This document shows positions 5,079-23,454 of a DNA stretch of 24,609 nt, piece by piece. Each line of letters begins with the position of its first letter. Position 1 is the first letter of the stretch. The notes beneath the pieces were generated by a model that saw only the letters and a program-made list of their open reading frames with translations, was not told the origin of the DNA and made no database searches. This stretch comes from a virus, in IMG/VR virus record IMGVR_UViG_3300027969_004512, positions 1-24,609 of that record; one strand, written 5' to 3'. The position numbers were made by a program, and so were the translations under genes.

Positions 5079-5087
5079 ATATTTATC
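5079..5087 (-). promoter_or_regulatory. T4-type late promoter core for the fibre gene
   Basis: The minus strand reads GATAAATAT. The distance of about 26 bases to the fibre ATG at 5053 leaves room for a short leader containing the GGAAAGG ribosome binding site. Confidence 0.65.
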
Positions 5088-5241: not shown

Positions 5242-5439
5242 CCGTTGTGCCCGTACAGTAGTAGGATTAATAGTAAGTCCTGGCGGCAATCCAGTATCAC
5301 TCCCCAACATTCTATAAACGGTCGATCCAACTGGATTATTAATTATAACGTTAGGAATAATTTGAAAATACGAACCCACATACATTAAAAAAGTTTGTTC
5401 CGCCAATGGTTCTAGAAATTCTATCGTTGTATCAGCCAT
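5239..5439 (-). CDS. Small Ig-like (He_PIG) tail protein, N-terminal part; frameshifted
   Basis: 66 residues in the intact frame. The N-terminus MADTTIEFLEPLAEQTFLMY leads into VYRMLGSDTGLPPGLTINP, the first half of a putative Ig repeat of the same type as in the preceding 681-residue protein. The frame then ends early, while the rest of the repeat is readable in the -1 frame down to 5156. The ATG overlaps the end of the 681-residue gene (shared ATGGCTGA), so it is translationally coupled to it and belongs to the same late operon. Such Ig-like domains are common on phage tails, capsids and fibres, where they are thought to bind cell-surface carbohydrate; that role is family knowledge, not shown here. 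Confidence 0.7.
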   Translation of the reverse strand: MADTTIEFLEPLAEQTFLMYVGSYFQIIPNVIINNPVGSTVYRMLGSDTGLPPGLTINPTTVRAQR

Positions 5440-7477
5440 TATTATTACCCGTATCGATAGTATCTTTTATTCTAAATAATTTTGAATCGTTGTATGGGTA
5501 ATAATCAAATATCAAACCATTATCAAATGAAGTTAAGTCCAGATCAAAACTTGTTTTTATAGAAATTGATTCAAATATAACTTCATATTGATCAAATAAT
5601 ACAACATGTCCTCTTCGAATTGGATCGGATGGGTCAATGGGAGATTCATCTGGCTTGTATCTTACTGCAATCTTATCTAACACCTGTTTTCCTGTTCCAG
5701 GCAGTAAATATGCTACAACGATTGCGGGAATATATCCTATAGCTGTTGAGGGATCATTATTTGATTGCGGGCATGACATCCATATTGGTAAGTTTTCGGC
5801 AGAGTTTATACCCAAAAACTTTGGATTATCCGATGGAAATTTTAGACCTAAAGCAAACTCATTGCGTATATTATTAATACTATTTGGATTTATATAAACT
5901 GGATTAGTTGCATCGGATTCTGGATAAAGCAATGGGTCTTTAACTGGATTATTATCAATAATATACCCTCCCGCTCCAGCCATGGAATCATGTACTTCTC
6001 TATATAAGACTTCATATATAACTTTTCCATTGATTATTACGTTTGCAACTTTATGATCTCCCAAAATTAAACGCATTGGTCCATTAGTAGGAGATGATCT
6101 AATATAAGAACCTACCGTATCAGCGGACCCATTTAATCCACCAATAAGATAAATTTGCAAAGAATTAGAATTTGATATTCCAAAGTTTATATCATCTCGT
6201 CTGAAATAATCAGATGTCTGTATTATTTCAGAATAATATTTTGTCATATAAGTGGCATCAAGCATTCTTATTTTAAAATAAAAATCCAAATATTGCGATG
6301 ATTTGTATTTTGATAAGACGGTGATTGAAAAATTTCTATCTTCAAAAACATTTAAAACATTTGCTCGAACTGTAAAATCATAGGTAACATTTGTATCACT
6401 AGCATGCAATAAGATGCCTTCTATATTACCGTTAGACGAATTTAATTTTAAGCCTGGAGGTAATTGTGTATTTTTAACCAGTGAATAAGAAACACTTTCC
6501 CCCGTGGTACAAATAGCATTTATTGATAAAGGAAAAGCTTGACCTTCATACAGGCTTGTTAAAAATCCGGCAGGAGTATTCCAAATTATAAGACGGAACG
6601 GCTGTAGGGACGTATTGGTCGGCTCTATGGTGATTTTAAACGTTAATGCATTTTTTGCATTACCAGACGTAATTAAATTTCCAAAAAAATCTTTCATTAA
6701 TATATTAAAATAATAATCACCGAACCGAACATCTGGTGCAACGATGCCTTCTATTAATCCAGAAGAATTTATAGAAAGACCGGATGGAATCATATTAAAT
6801 GGCGATGATAATTGCGGATTAAAAAATCTTTGAATTTCAAAAGTTGGTGGGAGGTTGGTTGGTTCAAATATATCTAATTGAAACTCAAAAAGCTTTGAGC
6901 GGGTAGAGCTACCAATAGGAATATAAGGAAATGGTGGATTTCCAGATTTAATTTTTTCAGTGGGCAATTTTCCCCAACTGGGCGGAGATGAAACCGCGTT
7001 GGATATATCAACGATAATAGAGAATTCTCTGTCTCTAACATATATTCCATCGGATATTCTAGTCGCAAACGTATAAGTTTGTGGCACAACCGACTTGGAT
7101 GATTTTAATGTTCCAGAAATTAATCCAGAATTTGATAAACTCAGACCAGAAGGGAGCGAATCATATAAAGTAGAATATGTTAATGGTTTTGTAGTATTGA
7201 TACTAATAATATCTGATTTCGAAACAACCGTATTTGATAAAACTATGTTATCGGCTTCTATAGTATAAGAAACTGATTTATTATTAACATATACATTGCT
7301 AATCGAACGTAAATCGATATTATTTCCTGCTAAATTAACTTGATTTGGCGAATTAAAATACGATCCCATAAATTGCGCAGAGTGAACCGCGTTCAATTTA
7401 ATAGATATTGCCTGATTCTCTATAATACGTGTAATATTACCAGAAGGCGTTTGCCATGTTGGATAAAAAGCAATCAT
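5432..7477 (-). CDS. Structural protein with three putative Ig (He_PIG) repeats
   Basis: 681 residues. Three repeats carry the He_PIG signature: SLPSGLSLSNSGLISGTL (residues ~100-157), IPSGLSINSSGLIEGIV (~195-285) and LPPGLKLNSSNGNIEGIL (~305-387), each followed by a YxF-type beta strand. The N-terminal ~95 and C-terminal ~290 residues match no family I know; the C-terminal part is aromatic, Pro- and Asn-rich. No signal peptide is seen. The position between a fibre and baseplate genes suggests a virion appendage. There is no Shine-Dalgarno sequence before the ATG. Instead the minus strand reads AATAAATACAAGATG, placing a late promoter core four bases before the start, so the mRNA may be leaderless. 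Confidence 0.8.
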   Translation of the reverse strand: MIAFYPTWQTPSGNITRIIENQAISIKLNAVHSAQFMGSYFNSPNQVNLAGNNIDLRSISNVYVNNKSVSYTIEADNIVLSNTVVSKSDIISINTTKPLTYSTLYDSLPSGLSLSNSGLISGTLKSSKSVVPQTYTFATRISDGIYVRDREFSIIVDISNAVSSPPSWGKLPTEKIKSGNPPFPYIPIGSSTRSKLFEFQLDIFEPTNLPPTFEIQRFFNPQLSSPFNMIPSGLSINSSGLIEGIVAPDVRFGDYYFNILMKDFFGNLITSGNAKNALTFKITIEPTNTSLQPFRLIIWNTPAGFLTSLYEGQAFPLSINAICTTGESVSYSLVKNTQLPPGLKLNSSNGNIEGILLHASDTNVTYDFTVRANVLNVFEDRNFSITVLSKYKSSQYLDFYFKIRMLDATYMTKYYSEIIQTSDYFRRDDINFGISNSNSLQIYLIGGLNGSADTVGSYIRSSPTNGPMRLILGDHKVANVIINGKVIYEVLYREVHDSMAGAGGYIIDNNPVKDPLLYPESDATNPVYINPNSINNIRNEFALGLKFPSDNPKFLGINSAENLPIWMSCPQSNNDPSTAIGYIPAIVVAYLLPGTGKQVLDKIAVRYKPDESPIDPSDPIRRGHVVLFDQYEVIFESISIKTSFDLDLTSFDNGLIFDYYPYNDSKLFRIKDTIDTGNNNG

Positions 7478-7481
7478 CTTG

Positions 7482-7490
7482 TATTTATTG
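7482..7490 (-). promoter_or_regulatory. Late promoter core directly at the start of the 681-aa gene
   Basis: The minus strand reads CAATAAATA, followed by CAAG and the ATG at 7477. With T4-like spacing the first transcribed base falls at or next to the start codon. Confidence 0.6.
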
Positions 7491-7497
7491 TAGATAT

Positions 7498-8217
7498 TTA
7501 ATATGATAGCCTATCGTCTTGTATCTTCATACGGGCATTTGATAGTTTTTCTATGTATCCCAAGTTTCTAAGAGATTTGAAAGTAAGATTTTCTGTAGAA
7601 AACTCTCCACCAGATTCTAATCCAGATTTTCTCATTTTTTTAATAGCAGCAAAAAGATCAGCAATGTCTTTCATATTTGGATTATTTTCTAGCAAATCGT
7701 CTATTTTTTCAGCATAATAACTAGTTTTAGCGATAACAGCAGAATCATTCCATGATGGTTTTTTTGCGGTAGGAGTATCTATCCATTTATTACGTAAAAT
7801 AGAGTATATACCATTTGAATTTAAATTTTCATTTAAGTCCTGAACATACAATTCAACTGATTGATTTCCAACTATTATATTATGCTGAGAATTCCAAAGA
7901 TTTTTTTTTGTTGTAAAGAAATTAGCCATTAATTCTGAGCATGGTTCTGAATTATAATCGACAATTAAATGAACATCTAGGTCACTTAAAGACGTATAAT
8001 TATACGATGCATTTGAACCGCCAAGAATAATATCTAGAACTTTCAATTTCGGCAATTCCAAGAAATCATAAAAAGCGCGTGCGATCTGCAATAAATGGAG
8101 ACGGACCATTGGAATTAATGTGGAATCTTTCCAGATTCTTGGATTAAGCTCATCGTGAAATGTGATGAACTTTTTCAATTCGTTGGGATCAATATCTTCT
8201 AGATGAATATCGGGCAT
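7498..8217 (-). CDS. Nucleotidyltransferase-like protein (pol beta superfamily)
   Basis: 239 residues. IILGGSNASYNYTSLSDLDV (residues ~63-82) has the pol-beta nucleotidyltransferase pattern: a GGS turn followed by a D-x-D pair (Asp79, Asp81). A possible third carboxylate is Glu122 in SVELYVQD. The rest is mostly helical. Members of this superfamily transfer NMP to RNA, protein or small molecules; the substrate here is unknown. The gene is the first of the minus-strand late run, and its stop lies only 20 bases before the next start codon. Its own start follows a late core directly (GATAAATAAAGTATG), again without a Shine-Dalgarno sequence. A late nucleotidyltransferase beside tail genes could be virion-associated or host-directed, but that is speculation. 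Confidence 0.75.
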   Translation of the reverse strand: MPDIHLEDIDPNELKKFITFHDELNPRIWKDSTLIPMVRLHLLQIARAFYDFLELPKLKVLDIILGGSNASYNYTSLSDLDVHLIVDYNSEPCSELMANFFTTKKNLWNSQHNIIVGNQSVELYVQDLNENLNSNGIYSILRNKWIDTPTAKKPSWNDSAVIAKTSYYAEKIDDLLENNPNMKDIADLFAAIKKMRKSGLESGGEFSTENLTFKSLRNLGYIEKLSNARMKIQDDRLSY

Positions 8218-8220
8218 ACT

Positions 8221-8229
8221 TTATTTATC
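8221..8229 (-). promoter_or_regulatory. Late promoter core directly at the start of the nucleotidyltransferase gene
   Basis: The minus strand reads GATAAATAA, then AGT and the ATG at 8217. The same twelve-base string GATAAATAAAGT precedes the start codon of the unrelated gene at 10975. Confidence 0.65.
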
Positions 8230-8321
8230 AACATAGCTTTAAAAAATATTGTAATGTCGGGGGTAGGTTTGATAAAGTTGGTTTGTGGATAAAACACAAC
8301 AAACAGGCAAAGGAAAAATAA

Positions 8322-8747
8322 ATGAATAACGTCAATAAGGTAACATTAATCGGTCGGTTGGGCGGTAACCCTGTAATTCGCACTATGTCTTCTGGTGATA
8401 AGGTAGCTAATATGAGAATTGCTACTTCAGATTCTTGGAAGAATAAGGTTACAGGCGAGCGGCAAGAAACTACTGAGTGGCACAATGTTGTAATTTATAA
8501 CGAGAATATTGTGCGCGTTGCTGAACAATATCTAAAGTCAGGTGCTCTAGTTTACCTTGAAGGTGCTCTTCGAACACGAGAGTGGAACGAAGAATCTACC
8601 GGAAATACACGATATACCACTGAAATTGTCATGCAAAAGTACCGTGGTGAGTTGGTAATGCTGGATAAGAAGTCAGAAAATTCCGGTGGAATTGAAATGA
8701 TGAGTACTCGCATCGAGCGAGATATGAGCGAAGAAATTCCGTTCTAA
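8322..8747 (+). CDS. ssb: Single-stranded DNA-binding protein, bacterial type
   Basis: 141 residues with the bacterial SSB OB-fold: NKVTLIGRLGGNPVIRTMSS at the N-terminus, TEWHNVVIYNENIVRVAEQY in the middle and YLEGALRTREW, then an acidic tail ending EEIPF. That tail matches the bacterial '-DDIPF' tip, which recruits repair and replication proteins. It would coat single-stranded DNA in replication and recombination. T4 uses the unrelated gp32; whether a gp32 also exists outside this window cannot be told. AAAGGA lies about eight bases before the ATG at 8322, and a strong terminator follows. The gene is divergent from the late tail operon, which suggests separate, earlier control, but I cannot define its promoter with confidence. 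Confidence 0.95.
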   Translation: MNNVNKVTLIGRLGGNPVIRTMSSGDKVANMRIATSDSWKNKVTGERQETTEWHNVVIYNENIVRVAEQYLKSGALVYLEGALRTREWNEESTGNTRYTTEIVMQKYRGELVMLDKKSENSGGIEMMSTRIERDMSEEIPF

Positions 8748-8767
8748 TCATATTATTTTTCTAAATG

Positions 8768-8808
8768 AAAAACTCCCGATAGCTTAAATGTTGTCGGGAG
8801 TTTTTTTA
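8768..8808 (+). terminator. Intrinsic terminator after ssb
   Basis: AACTCCCGA and TCGGGAGTT form a 9-bp stem (extended by A/T pairs), followed by a run of seven T. It ends the ssb transcript. Confidence 0.93.
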
Positions 8809-8908
8809 TTAAAATGAAAAATAAATGTTGTATTTTTATGCAAACTAATATAGACCCTAAATTAACCGAGAAACGGGTGATTCGTACCCAAAGTCAAGAA
8901 AGATAAAC

Positions 8909-9421
8909 ATGACATTCAAACTTACGTTTAACAAGCCAGCTACTCGTCAATTTATTGATGGAATTGAGTGTGGTGGTCTAGAAATCAAGATAGTCGATGG
9001 CTGTGTTCAATTCAGACCCGTAGTTAATCTTGGTTCTGAATCAGTCGAGCTATCTATGCGGGATCGTGGTGGATTTGAAATCACCATTTCGGGTTCCGAA
9101 GAAAATGAGCTTTTGGCGGCTTTTAAGAATAGTTCTGGTCCATATTTCACTTTACGGCGGCAGGGTGAATGGATGGTAACTGCCCCATATAATAAGGCGG
9201 ATGAGCCACCGAAGTTTGAACCCCACCTGCGGGTTTGGTCTAAGGATGTTCTGGTTCAAACCAAGAAAGAAAAAGAAATTATTGGCGAACCAGAGGGCCA
9301 TGATGCCCGTGTGCGTTGGGCATATGCTATACTCGCCAGTCACGCCAAGGGCCCAGGAAGGCCCTCCAGTAAGTTTCTAAGGGCAAAGCAGATTGTCAAA
9401 GAAGAATTTGAAACTGCTTAA
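8909..9421 (+). CDS. Hypothetical protein, 170 aa
   Basis: I do not recognise this protein. The first ~85 residues are beta-rich (LTFNKPATRQFIDGIECGGL). The C-terminal ~55 residues are basic and helical and contain KGPGRPSSKFLRAKQIV, whose GRP core resembles an AT-hook and would suit nucleic-acid contact; this is only a resemblance. AAGAAAGATAAAC precedes the ATG. The gene stands alone between two intrinsic terminators (8768-8808 and 9433-9461), so it must have its own promoter in 8809-8908, where the -10-like TATAGA or TAATAT near 8850 has no well-spaced -35. GC content looks higher than in the structural genes nearby. Confidence 0.8.
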   Translation: MTFKLTFNKPATRQFIDGIECGGLEIKIVDGCVQFRPVVNLGSESVELSMRDRGGFEITISGSEENELLAAFKNSSGPYFTLRRQGEWMVTAPYNKADEPPKFEPHLRVWSKDVLVQTKKEKEIIGEPEGHDARVRWAYAILASHAKGPGRPSSKFLRAKQIVKEEFETA

Positions 9422-9432
9422 TGTAAAATAAG

Positions 9433-9461
9433 AAAAAGGCGGGAAATTCCCGCCTTTTTTT
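9433..9461 (+). terminator. Intrinsic terminator after the 170-aa gene
   Basis: AAAAAGGCGGG and CCCGCCTTTTT form an 11-bp stem with a five-base loop and a T-run. The A/T flanks make it usable from both strands. Confidence 0.92.
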
Positions 9462-9462
9462 A

Positions 9463-9527
9463 TATCTGGTAAGGATTCGAACCTCACTACCTCTAAACGC
9501 GCACCTTCTCCATAATGCTGCTCGATA
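9463..9527 (-). other. tRNA-like remnant
   Basis: Read on the minus strand, this has a good T-arm (TGAGG, loop TTCGAAT, CCTTA). Outer segments TATCGAG and CCAGATA pair over four end bases. The 5' part resembles a D-arm (GCA ... GGAGAAGG ... TGC). Only ~14 bases separate the D-like and T arms, about eight too few for a normal anticodon arm plus variable loop, and the acceptor stem has mismatches. It is therefore not a functional canonical tRNA, but probably a decayed or deleted tRNA or a tRNA 3' end left by recombination. Confidence 0.35.
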
Positions 9528-9548
9528 TAATTTATTTATTATTAAAAT

Positions 9549-9579
9549 AAAAGGGGGTGGAAAAATCCACCCCCTTTTT
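9549..9579 (-). terminator. Intrinsic terminator of the M16 peptidase gene
   Basis: A 13-bp perfect stem (AAAAGGGGGTGGA with its complement) with a four-base loop, ending in a T-run on either strand. It sits four bases after the peptidase stop codon. Confidence 0.92.
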
Positions 9580-9582
9580 CAG

Positions 9583-10872
9583 TTATACTGATAATATTTC
9601 TTTCACTATCTCAGAAGGATCACGGAGGCTATCACCTCCAGTATTACCGGCAATTGTGATAGATGGAATAGTCAGGATAACTTCCTTAGCGGCTCGAATT
9701 ACGTCATCTTTGGTTACATTGGCATACTGTTCATAAAGATCATTAATTGAAACGACCTTATTGATTGTGAACATTTCCGTAGCAATAAGAGGAGCGATAC
9801 CTGAAACTTTATCAGCACGATGTGCTAGTCCCATGAAAACTTGGTTTCTAGCACGATCCCAATCGCTATCTTGGATTTCTCCATTGGCAATTTTCATAAG
9901 TTCTTGACAGGTTATTTCTAAACAGCTTTCGATATGATTTGCCGTGGTCGCACTTTGAACTATCAATAGACTATGATCAGATTGGCGCATCATGCCTGAT
10001 CCAATAGAATATGCCATCCCACGCTTTTCTCTAACTTCTTGGAAAAGAGGAGAAGACATTCCTGAACCAAGGACATCTGCTAGTAGCTTGAACCGAGGGA
10101 AGTCATCGCTGTATGGTGATGGCGCGGGAAAACCAAGGAGGATATGGGCTTGATCATATCGATCATCTGTAACTAGTGTTGTTCCCCCGACATATTCCGC
10201 AGGATCAAACGTGTTATTTCCCAAGTTCGGAAGATCACCAAAACGTTCAGCCGCCAGAGATACAAACTCGGCATGATCAATATCACCAACACCAATTACC
10301 ATCATTGAACCAGCATGATAATATTTTTGCATATACTCTCGGATAAGGGCTTGGTCAAACGACCTAACGTTATCGGCTTCTCCTAAGATGGGGCGACCAA
10401 TTGATTGATTAGGATAGGCAGTTCGAGAAAATGCATTGTATGCGATATCTTGAATATCGTCTTGGCTTTCATGGATTTCTTGAATTACGACTTCTTTTTC
10501 CCGAACAATTTCTTCGGGTTCAAGCGTAGAATGTTTCAAAACATCTGAAAGAATATCTAATGCCGGAATAATGTGCGAATTCAGACCGGTTACATGATAT
10601 GCAGTCATTGAGCGGCTGGTAAAAGCATTAATGTCAGCACCAAGCGTTTCAATTTCTACCGCAATATCCTTAGTTCCGCGAGTTTCTGTTCCCTTGAATG
10701 CCATATGTTCAAGAAAATGCGACAAGCCATTTTCCCGTTCAGTTTCAAAACGAGCACCCACATTTACAGCGACAGTAACATTAACGGTATTAATCGGCTT
10801 ATACGCGGTAGCGACGATTATACCATTGGGGAGTGTGGCCATATCAACTTTTAGATCGACAAGCTTTTTCAA
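9583..10872 (-). CDS. M16B family zinc metallopeptidase (processing-peptidase-like)
   Basis: 429 residues from a TTG start. The inverted zinc motif HFLEH (His52, Glu55, His56) follows GARFETERENGLSHFLEH, and the distal zinc ligand is Glu132 in VVIQEIHES, at the usual spacing. Both halves of the M16B fold are present, including the later REKRGMAYSIGSG block of the C-terminal half. Related enzymes are mitochondrial processing peptidase beta and bacterial PqqL/YmxG-like peptidases, which clip presequences or small peptides. The frame is open to an ATG at 10905, but only the TTG at 10872 has a good ribosome binding site (AAAGGAT, 7-8 bases upstream). No signal peptide is seen, so it acts in the cytoplasm. 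It is a single-gene unit with its own terminator, which together with the tRNA-like scar suggests horizontal gain from a bacterium (inference). Confidence 0.93.
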   Translation of the reverse strand: MKKLVDLKVDMATLPNGIIVATAYKPINTVNVTVAVNVGARFETERENGLSHFLEHMAFKGTETRGTKDIAVEIETLGADINAFTSRSMTAYHVTGLNSHIIPALDILSDVLKHSTLEPEEIVREKEVVIQEIHESQDDIQDIAYNAFSRTAYPNQSIGRPILGEADNVRSFDQALIREYMQKYYHAGSMMVIGVGDIDHAEFVSLAAERFGDLPNLGNNTFDPAEYVGGTTLVTDDRYDQAHILLGFPAPSPYSDDFPRFKLLADVLGSGMSSPLFQEVREKRGMAYSIGSGMMRQSDHSLLIVQSATTANHIESCLEITCQELMKIANGEIQDSDWDRARNQVFMGLAHRADKVSGIAPLIATEMFTINKVVSINDLYEQYANVTKDDVIRAAKEVILTIPSITIAGNTGGDSLRDPSEIVKEILSV

Positions 10873-10961
10873 AATTATTATCCTTTTGTTTAAAATCCAA
10901 ATCATACCTTATGCAAATATCGCTCGTTAGTCAATTGAAAAATTTATATTGCATTGAACAT

Positions 10962-10970
10962 GATAAATAA
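10962..10970 (+). promoter_or_regulatory. Late promoter core directly at the start codon at 10975
   Basis: GATAAATAA is followed by AGTA and the ATG. An upstream in-frame TTG (10954) and ATG (10960) fall in or before the promoter core and are not credible starts. Confidence 0.65.
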
Positions 10971-10974
10971 AGTA

Positions 10975-11559
10975 ATGGCTTTCGATATTCAAAAAATTCA
11001 AGATTCTCCGCACCTTCTGGACATATTACTCCAAATGGAGGATGTGCTAGATTCTTTAGATATATACGTTTTTAAAAATTGGTATCTTGGTGAACTATCA
11101 GAAGGACCAATAATTCGCCGCTATTGGTTAGATTTTACATTAAAATATCCATTAGATAAAATGCCTGATCCAAAAGCAGCGCTGCGGTTACTTAAACATG
11201 GCATACGAGTTGACTATTGGAAAGCTCGATTGCAAAATGGTGACTTCATAGATATTGAAAACAATGAGAATGAAAACTTGGATGATAATTCTAATCAAGG
11301 AATGTCCGCATCAGAACAAGAAAAATCGGCTGATCCAGTAAAAGATCATGTATGGTTAGTTAAGATTAGTATTCCTCGTAGATTAGTTTCGCAAATGTCA
11401 GCAGAAGAAATGAACTTCTACGATGAAGACGTTGACATTGAAGATGTAGAAGACGCAAAAGATAGCGGAATAGATGAAGAAACCGCATATACTAGCGATC
11501 AACAAGACAATCTTGATTCTACTGGTCAGGAAAATCCACCAGGAGAAATTAATGCTTAA
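10975..11559 (+). CDS. Conserved-looking phage protein of unknown function, acidic C-terminus
   Basis: 194 residues. The first ~95 look like a compact domain (SPHLLDILLQMEDVLDSLDI, then YPLDKMPDPKAALRLLKHGI). A short conserved strand follows near residue 120 (KDHVWLVKISIPRRLV), and then a very acidic, probably disordered tail of about 60 residues. It reminds me of unknown proteins encoded by T4-like marine phages, but I cannot name a function. The chosen ATG directly follows the late core, so expression is expected late and possibly from a leaderless mRNA. The stop overlaps the next gene by eight bases (ATGCTTAA), so the pair is translationally coupled and probably works together. A late structural or assembly role is a reasonable guess only. 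Confidence 0.8.
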   Translation: MAFDIQKIQDSPHLLDILLQMEDVLDSLDIYVFKNWYLGELSEGPIIRRYWLDFTLKYPLDKMPDPKAALRLLKHGIRVDYWKARLQNGDFIDIENNENENLDDNSNQGMSASEQEKSADPVKDHVWLVKISIPRRLVSQMSAEEMNFYDEDVDIEDVEDAKDSGIDEETAYTSDQQDNLDSTGQENPPGEINA

Positions 11560-13088: not shown

Positions 13089-14234
13089 ATGAATTGGTTT
13101 GGTAAAAAAAAGAATAATGGTGAAAATAAAATTCGCGAAGCGATTCGTGATCTTATGCTTATTGATAGCCAGAATGCATTATTATTAGCGGCGACTGAAA
13201 CCGCAGATATGGCACAATTAGTTACCAAGAAACTTAAGTCTAAACTAGAAGATACTATGGCACAAATCGAAAGCACTGCCAGAATATTGAATGATGCATT
13301 AATAATTTGCGACTCTGATGGAAAAGTGCAAGCATTTAATCCTGCTGCTGAAAAAATATTTGATATGACTTCGGATGAGGTTCGTTGCAGCTTTGTTGGA
13401 GATTTGTTTAATAGCAAAACGCATAACTTCAAAACGTTTGATGATATTTGGACATTTCTAGCTATGATGGATATTAGCGAAGAAGAACATGATCTGAGCG
13501 GTAAAAGAAAAGATAATAGCTCATTTCCTATAAAAATAAATCACACCAAGTTAGATAGGTCTGATGGTAGTTCCATAATTTTGTTAGCAATACGAGATAT
13601 AAGTGAAATCCCATGCGAACCGTGCAGCGATGCTCATGAAAAAATGAAATGCTATAGAAGCATTTTTGAAGAAAGCTTTGATGGTATTTTAGTTGTCAAA
13701 GGGAAAAGAATATTGGCGGCAAATCGAGCAGTTAGTAATCTCTACGGCTATTCAGTAGAAGAACTTTTGTCGCAATCTTTGGATATATTAATATTTTCTT
13801 CTGATATGGGCAAACATCATGATGGGCATTTAATTGATATTTCATTTACAACTTCTAATATAATTTGGCATAATGAACCAGCATCGTTAATAACTATAAA
13901 AACTAAGAGAAATGAAAGTAAAAATAAAGAAGCTAAAATGATTTGCTTCTTTAATAAAGATTTTAATATAACCTTTGCGAATTCAAAATTTGCAAATTGG
14001 TATAATTTAACAAAAGAAGAAATTATAGGAAAAGATATTAGATCATTATTAAATGAAGAAGAACATGATTTATTTGTAATTCACATCAATAGTTTAACGT
14101 CGGAAAATCCAACTAGAAAAATGGAACTTCGTACTCGCGGCGAGAATGGCAAAGTTAATTATCAAATTTGGACTGATCACGTGGCATACGACGAATATGG
14201 CACTGAGTATCAAAGAATTGGTCATGCTGGTTGA
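13089..14234 (+). CDS. PAS-domain protein without output domain
   Basis: 381 residues. Three PAS modules are visible. PAS1 (~61-172) has DALIICDSDGKVQAFNPAAE and a final IILLAIRDISE. PAS2 (~189-275) has ESFDGILVVKGKRILAANRA and LYGYSVEELL. PAS3 (~283-381) has MICFFNKDFNITFANSKF and ends at EYQRIGHAG, just where other PAS domains continue with 'RDIT'. An N-terminal ~55-residue amphipathic helix could mediate dimerisation. A CxxC pair lies between PAS1 and PAS2 (PCEPC). No histidine kinase, GGDEF or DNA-binding domain is present, so it would act by binding a partner or as a decoy for host sensory proteins. AAAGG precedes the ATG. The 3' end overlaps the convergent DUF3307 gene by 13 bases. Confidence 0.88.
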   Translation: MNWFGKKKNNGENKIREAIRDLMLIDSQNALLLAATETADMAQLVTKKLKSKLEDTMAQIESTARILNDALIICDSDGKVQAFNPAAEKIFDMTSDEVRCSFVGDLFNSKTHNFKTFDDIWTFLAMMDISEEEHDLSGKRKDNSSFPIKINHTKLDRSDGSSIILLAIRDISEIPCEPCSDAHEKMKCYRSIFEESFDGILVVKGKRILAANRAVSNLYGYSVEELLSQSLDILIFSSDMGKHHDGHLIDISFTTSNIIWHNEPASLITIKTKRNESKNKEAKMICFFNKDFNITFANSKFANWYNLTKEEIIGKDIRSLLNEEEHDLFVIHINSLTSENPTRKMELRTRGENGKVNYQIWTDHVAYDEYGTEYQRIGHAG

Positions 14235-23089: not shown

Positions 23090-23407
23090 TTAAATGTCTT
23101 TATTTTTATGATCTAATGGTGGATTAGGCGGTTGATTTTCTTCAGAAAGTTTACGATTAATTTCATCGTATATTTCGTTTACACCAAACGCAATTGCCTC
23201 CCGTATTTTTCTAATATTCAATATAATACGGGCTTCTGAAAGTTTTCGTCTTTCCGGTCCTCGCATAATTTTTGCGAGTTCCGCTCCACGAAGCACTCTT
23301 TCATTTCCATTGAAATCGGTTACTTTTGCTAAAACAATAAATTCCAATGGTACTTCATCGGGATCGATGCTTTGGATAATATCTTCAAATAGATCACTAG
23401 GGGTCAT
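23090..23407 (-). CDS. Unknown protein, 105 aa
   Basis: Not recognised. It has an acidic N-terminus (DLFEDIIQSIDPDEVPLEFI), a short beta-like segment (IVLAKVTDFNGNERVLRGAE), a basic helix (RGPERRKLSEARIILNIRKI) and a polar, Pro/Asn-rich end. There are no cysteines and no membrane span. The ribosome binding site is strong (AAGGAGGAC, six bases before the ATG) and directly abuts an 11-bp inverted repeat (23420-23454). The gene is followed at once by a terminator hairpin, so it may be transcribed at a higher level than its neighbours. Confidence 0.78.
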   Translation of the reverse strand: MTPSDLFEDIIQSIDPDEVPLEFIVLAKVTDFNGNERVLRGAELAKIMRGPERRKLSEARIILNIRKIREAIAFGVNEIYDEINRKLSEENQPPNPPLDHKNKDI

Positions 23408-23419
23408 AGAAAGTCCTCC

Positions 23420-23454
23420 TTAACATAAGTATTTACCCGAATAACTTATGTTAA
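23420..23454 (-). promoter_or_regulatory. 11-bp inverted repeat abutting a strong ribosome binding site
   Basis: TTAACATAAGT and ACTTATGTTAA are perfect complements separated by 13 bases. On the minus strand the 3' arm runs straight into AAGGAGGAC. It may be a 5' stabilising hairpin or an operator. Confidence 0.45.

Follow-up and report, generated by a model that had tools for sequence, protein, structure and literature searches.

Known late promoters and leaderless mRNAs

Late promoters that depend on gp55 and leaderless mRNAs are each well known separately. The late promoters of phage T4 (TATAAATA) are the closest described system. Like them, the promoters that we describe here have the core ATAAATA and no evident -35 element, and the geometry of the start site is the same; also, several relatives in which the core lies immediately before the start codon (the fused layout) encode homologs of gp55. 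In T4, however, most of the cores are 17-32 nt upstream of starts that have a Shine-Dalgarno (SD) sequence. In Pectobacterium phage CBB and Cronobacter phage GAP32, which are Rak2-like, ATAAATA is reported upstream of structural genes, in passages that do not mention a leaderless class (PMC5259590). Neither CBB nor GAP32 has the fused layout above the level of the control.

Bacterial leaderless mRNAs and the cI mRNA of phage lambda are similar in that the -10 element adjoins the start codon, AUG is preferred, and there is no SD (PMC9031893, PMC3160421). They differ in that the system proposed here would rely on a dedicated promoter of the T4 late type, at dozens of genes in each phage, beside leadered late promoters. 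Among pelagimyophages, the cultured HTVC008M is T4-like and has cores exactly 5 nt before annotated virion genes, although it is smaller than the phage that we studied and is distantly related to it. The authors of a study of phage AR9 state that phage transcripts are often leaderless (PMC5312081). A search of available open-access literature turned up no account of T4-type phages with leaderless late mRNAs.

The window and its relatives

The stretch of DNA that we analyzed (the window) is an entire virus record of 24,609 nt. The DNA polymerase that it encodes shares 50-52% identity with its counterparts in Sinorhizobium phage Phosso and Agrobacterium phage Atu_ph07, and 44-45% with those of Rak2-like phages. 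By sequence comparison, the window represents part of the genome of an uncultured jumbo T4-type myovirus whose relatives are Phosso, Atu_ph07, and the Rak2-like phages. Two of the related contigs are G003 (415 kb, 55% GC, classed as linear) and G010 (578 kb, 59% GC). G003 is probably incomplete because it is classed as linear and is shorter than relatives of 561-608 kb.

The window encodes an insulinase-like M16 peptidase with both domains present (9583-10905, minus strand), which is kept in G002, G003, and G004. Its best cellular homologs are 31-41% identical and are alphaproteobacterial almost without exception. A 381-amino-acid protein with several PAS domains (13089-14234, plus strand) is kept in G003 and G004. 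Between convergent genes, there are two strong GC-rich hairpins with T runs (9433-9459 and 9549-9578). These were called on the minus strand, and they are nearly symmetrical, so they may be bidirectional.

Fused and leadered cores in the window

A preliminary description of this DNA reported that three genes have a late core four or five bases before the ATG and no SD. All three of the promoter-start strings are exact and are located where they were reported to be, and GGAG, GAGG, and AGGA are absent upstream of each start. On the minus strand, ATAAATA at 7482-7488 is 4 nt before the ATG at 7477 (CAATAAATACAAGATG). This gene (5432-7477) encodes, by sequence comparison, a 681-amino-acid protein with He_PIG Ig domains, and its N-terminus, M(I/V)xFYPxW, is conserved from the proposed start. 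The second core, at 8222-8228 (minus strand), is 4 nt before the ATG at 8217 (GATAAATAAAGTATG). The gene (7498-8217, minus strand) is predicted to encode a 239-amino-acid phrog_36119 protein; homologs of this protein occur in cyanophages. On the plus strand, ATAAATA at 10963-10969 is 5 nt before the ATG at 10975 (GATAAATAAAGTAATG), which starts the gene for a 194-amino-acid virion structural protein (phrog_12928; 10975-11559). The first residues of this protein are conserved from the proposed ATG.

Two of the three fused genes have divergent upstream neighbors, which counts toward their having their own promoters. The gene upstream of the 8217 start encodes SSB (8322, plus strand) and is divergent, so the 8217 gene needs its own promoter within 8218-8321. 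The 10975 gene is 69 nt from the M16 peptidase gene, which is on the minus strand. The third gene, starting at 7477, is 20 nt downstream of a gene on the same strand. Just upstream of its fused core, there is a core-like TTAAATA (7495-7501, minus strand; 17 nt before the start), and the two may form a tandem promoter. Sigma-70-like promoters were found in 7400-11050 at the level expected by chance (11 found and 11.6 expected), and predicted RNA structure in the first 60 nt of each message was unremarkable.

Other cores in the window are farther upstream and have an SD. On the minus strand, the core at 2884-2890 is 22 nt before the start (2861) of a homolog of gene 25 (baseplate wedge), with AAGGAG, and the core at 5080-5086 is 26 nt before the start (5053) of a tail-fiber gene. 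The contrasting layout had been described as a core at 20-26 nt with a good ribosome binding site at both genes. The distances hold, as does the site of gene 25, but the SD of the fiber gene (GGAAAGG) is weaker. A third leadered site was absent from that list: a variant core, GTAAATA (23430-23436, minus strand), is 22 nt before the start at 23407, with AAGGAGG. At the equivalent place, G003 and G004 have ATAAATA.

Within the window, ATAAATA is not over-represented (9 were found and 18 are expected from shuffles of this AT-rich sequence). For the motif followed by ATG, simulations of the window alone give a mean of 1.2 strings, and 40 of 300 simulations (13%) reach at least three. Given the 26 likely gene starts, the probability of three cores at 4-6 nt is about 4e-7. 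The decisive evidence for the fused layout is comparative and comes from sequences of relatives.

Spacing and SD content in relatives

Across 33 related contigs, there are 318 matches to ATAAATA-N4-6-ATG and 58 to the reversed pattern, which is a count rather than a test, as some of the contigs are near-duplicates. A count of ATAAATA-N3-6-ATG gave 16 strings in G003 and none for the reversed control. Two contigs are not clearly enriched over the reversed pattern (18 vs. 10 in G011 and 14 vs. 11 in G013).

In relatives, the spacing between (A/C/G)TAAATA and the start is bimodal. The near peak is at 4-6 nt (extending to 9) and the far peak at 17-35 nt, with hardly any sites at 10-16 nt. Among G003 ORFs of at least 50 codons, 15 ATAAATA sites are at 4-6 nt, one is at 8 nt, none are at 9-16 nt, and the remainder are at 17 nt or more. 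Among rearrangements of the heptamer at 4-6 nt in G003, the runner-up was TAAATAA, with 8 sites (it overlaps the same motif), and the next had 3. When the core is widened to [ACG]TAAATA, 20 sites in G003 have a 4-nt gap and 25 have a 5-nt gap. With core variants included, G010 has the same two peaks, and the near one is at 4-5 nt. Another 45 contigs have their near peak at 5-9 nt. As had been proposed, two late-promoter layouts thus coexist, both in the window and throughout the genomes of several relatives, and they are separated by a real gap.

The two layouts differ sharply in SD content. The scoring rule was simple: an SD was counted when GGAG, GAGG, or AGGA occurred between -17 and -5 of a computed start. 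Pooled across genomes, 5 of 244 fused sites have an SD, as compared to 143 of 290 leadered sites (Fisher P about 3e-40, for sites that are not fully independent). For all four core variants in G010, the counts are 0/57 and 28/60. Start codons at [ACG]TAAATA sites in G003 (ATG/GTG/TTG) are 52/4/1 for fused genes and 50/7/17 for leadered genes. That fused starts are mostly ATG is as expected for leaderless initiation, for which AUG is preferred (PMC9031893).

Conservation of the layout across orthologs

At about 40-67% protein identity, relatives keep the layout of the window's genes. The gene for the 194-amino-acid virion protein has the fused layout in the window as well as in each of the three relatives that were compared, one of which has CTAAATA; the orthologs read CATAAATAAGGG-ATG, GATAAATAAGGTG-ATG, and GCTAAATAAGTG-ATG. 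The 239-amino-acid protein is fused in both phages that have the gene (CTAAATAGGGTT-ATG in G002). The gene for the 681-amino-acid protein is fused in three of four phages, including G003 (AGGGC-ATG) and G004 (AGGGT-ATG), and is leadered in G002, with a core at 20 nt and the SD AAGGA. The homolog of gene 25 is leadered in the window, G002, G003, and G004 and is fused in G010.

A comparison of orthologs between G003 and G010 found 14 that are fused in both, 18 that are leadered in both, and 2 switches (P = 2e-7). Specifically, genes that are fused in G003 are fused (14), leadered (1), or without a core (7) in G010, while those leadered in G003 are leadered (18), fused (1), or without a core (4). 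Just 4 of 115 genes that lack a core in G003 have one in G010. From these sequences, we conclude that layout is inherited with the individual gene, even between diverged phages.

What is conserved is the core and its spacing alone. The preliminary description had suggested that the identical GATAAATAAAGT before two starts may define a class, but this string differs in the orthologs of the 10975 gene, and the bases after the core, including the AAGT that had been pointed out, are not conserved. We rejected the string as a class marker because orthologs do not keep it; its presence at two starts is incidental.

Proposed mechanism

In T4, the late core occupies -13 to -6 (PMC2988020). With a 5-nt gap, the A of the ATG therefore falls at +1, which is where the fused layout has it. 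A late core of this type is expected about one helical turn before the transcription start, and the spacing to the ATG fits. At sites with a 5-nt gap, the base before the ATG is C or T in 91 of 102 cases, as compared to about 50% at other starts (three genomes). A pyrimidine there is what one would expect if RNA polymerase began its transcript with the purine A. Unlike this pyrimidine rule, sites with a 4-nt gap often have GG before the ATG (13/20 in G003 and 6/15 in G010), and this is at odds with a YA initiator.

Homologs of gp55 are present in G006, G008, G010, G011, G012, and G014 and in cultured relatives. G007 has only a gp55 fragment, at one end of the contig. We did not find gp55 in G003, G009, G022, or G023, which may be incomplete, or in the 24.6-kb window, and a custom profile gave no match in G003.

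We propose that these are T4-type late promoters, with a core (NTAAATA) that resembles TATAAATA, and that they are read by the phage's late sigma factor, presumably gp55 in this phage as well, on the host's RNA polymerase. At a fused core, the first transcribed base would be the A of the start codon or would lie a few bases from it at most. The resulting late mRNAs are predicted to have leaders of 0-4 nt and no SD, and they would be translated by leaderless initiation, with the ribosome recognizing the 5'-terminal AUG. The same phage would also make ordinary late mRNAs from the same core at 17-35 nt upstream of starts with an SD. Fused starts have two features that are expected of leaderless mRNAs, namely, no SD and a preference for AUG. 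It is very probable that fused T4-type late promoters give rise to leaderless late mRNAs beside leadered ones in one phage. The leaderless reading is supported, about as strongly as sequence alone permits, because of the dual layouts, the lack of SDs, the T4 +1 geometry, the conservation across orthologs, and the co-occurrence with gp55 in several relatives.

If this is correct, then one of the best-studied viral promoter systems doubles as a system for leaderless mRNAs in many natural phages. Each genome would hold tens of leaderless cases, and these phages require a very large output of late proteins. The purpose of leaderless translation would become testable, with the same core and sigma factor and two types of leader in one infection. 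Annotation of start sites and promoters in jumbo and SAR11 phages would also improve.

We considered phage-encoded IF-3 as an enabling factor and rejected it: there is no correlation with the fused layout. IF-3 is present in G009, G012, Atu_ph07, Phosso, and CBB (for example, L008:28625-28843) and was not found in G003, G006, G008, G010, or G014. Phosso also carries an annotated IF-1.

Alternative explanations

The promoters and the leaderless RNAs could be real but poorly translated, with the proteins made mainly from longer read-through transcripts. The promoter evidence would be identical, and the 7477 gene could be reached from its same-strand neighbor. We consider this unlikely. Read-through would have to reach the 8217 and 10975 genes past divergent neighbors, and HTVC008M uses the layout at core virion genes. 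Also, read-through RNAs would lack an SD at these starts as well, and the near absence of SDs at fused sites is best explained by an SD-independent mode of initiation.

Somewhat less probable still is that the A/T-rich heptamer is not a promoter but a translation element, such as an unstructured or S1-binding patch that aids initiation without an SD. The heptamer occupies the usual place of the SD, and some bacteria are known to have upstream signals that are rich in A and T (PMC3160421). But the same heptamer and its variants are also found 17-35 nt upstream of starts that do have an SD, heptamers with the same bases in another order show no enrichment, the spacing peak is at the T4 +1 distance, and the 681-amino-acid protein's gene changes layout between relatives.

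It is very unlikely that the assumed starts are wrong and that translation begins at internal codons with an SD. The starts were computed, but the similarity of the 681- and 194-amino-acid proteins to their homologs begins at the proposed methionine or within a few residues, and the depositors of HTVC008M independently picked the same starts.

Finally, that AT-rich sequence yields ATAAATA near ATG by chance is compatible with simulations of the window alone, but this explanation has almost no remaining probability and is already refuted by the comparative sequence data: the signal is strong in phages with 55-59% GC, the layout is conserved at orthologs, and the reversed pattern is far rarer (58 vs. 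318). Within the window, the probability of about 4e-7, given the gene starts, also counts against chance.

Distribution across phages and hosts

The fused layout is not a general feature of T4-type phages; we rejected that idea because most cultured phages are not clearly above the reversed-pattern control. T4 itself has no ATAAATA within 0-11 nt of any ORF start. Besides T4, the phages not clearly above the control are GAP32, CBB, 121Q, XaC1, RaK2, PA5oct, KVP40, syn9, S-SSM5, P-SSM2, S-CRM01, PAU, Cr30, phiM12, Phosso, and Atu_ph07, with several counts that are too small to decide. This includes the closest cultured relatives by protein similarity (Phosso and Atu_ph07). Xanthomonas phage XacN1 is intermediate, with modest enrichment (8 vs. 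1 for the control).

Clear enrichment was found in HTVC008M, a cultured phage of Pelagibacter (SAR11), which has nine starts 5 nt after ATAAATA. In its first 50 kb, nine genes annotated by the depositors start exactly 5 nt after ATAAATA or CTAAATA, and four leadered genes with GGAG are found besides these. The fused genes of HTVC008M include those for the tape measure, the DNA end protector, head closure, the baseplate tail-tube cap, the baseplate wedge, and the wedge initiator. In a survey of pelagimyophages, prediction of late promoters by published methods failed (PMC7029224); the fused layout may explain this.

It is plausible that the fused layout depends on the host, because the best cellular homologs of the M16 peptidase are almost all alphaproteobacterial and because, among gammaproteobacteria, leaderless genes are reported in Xanthomonadales (PMC3160421). 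On the other hand, Cr30, phiM12, PAU, Phosso, and Atu_ph07 are also phages of alphaproteobacterial hosts and give no clear signal. A broader proposal, which we put forward tentatively and which may well be wrong, is that large T4-type phages have evolved two modes of late expression throughout their genomes: roughly half of the late promoters would make leaderless mRNAs, and each gene would keep its mode over long evolutionary distances. This system would track hosts that are competent for leaderless translation (alphaproteobacteria such as SAR11, and perhaps Xanthomonas) and would be preferred for virion and injected proteins that have an N-terminal targeting peptide in common.

Proteins encoded downstream of fused promoters in G003 often share a start peptide, such as MREFINLLE, MREWINLVE, MRDFINLVE, or MRMRDLMNLVES. 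By an ad hoc pattern, it is present in 15 of 52 fused genes, 0 of 37 leadered genes, and 32 of 580 genes overall. Examples are L021:9714-10850, L016:13424-14185, and L022:2238-2843 (G003 comprises these within L009-L029). This shared peptide resembles the capsid-targeting propeptides of T4. Among the G003 genes whose products start with MR, one matches ART-PolyVal (PF18760), and others match an endolysin or a kinase profile.
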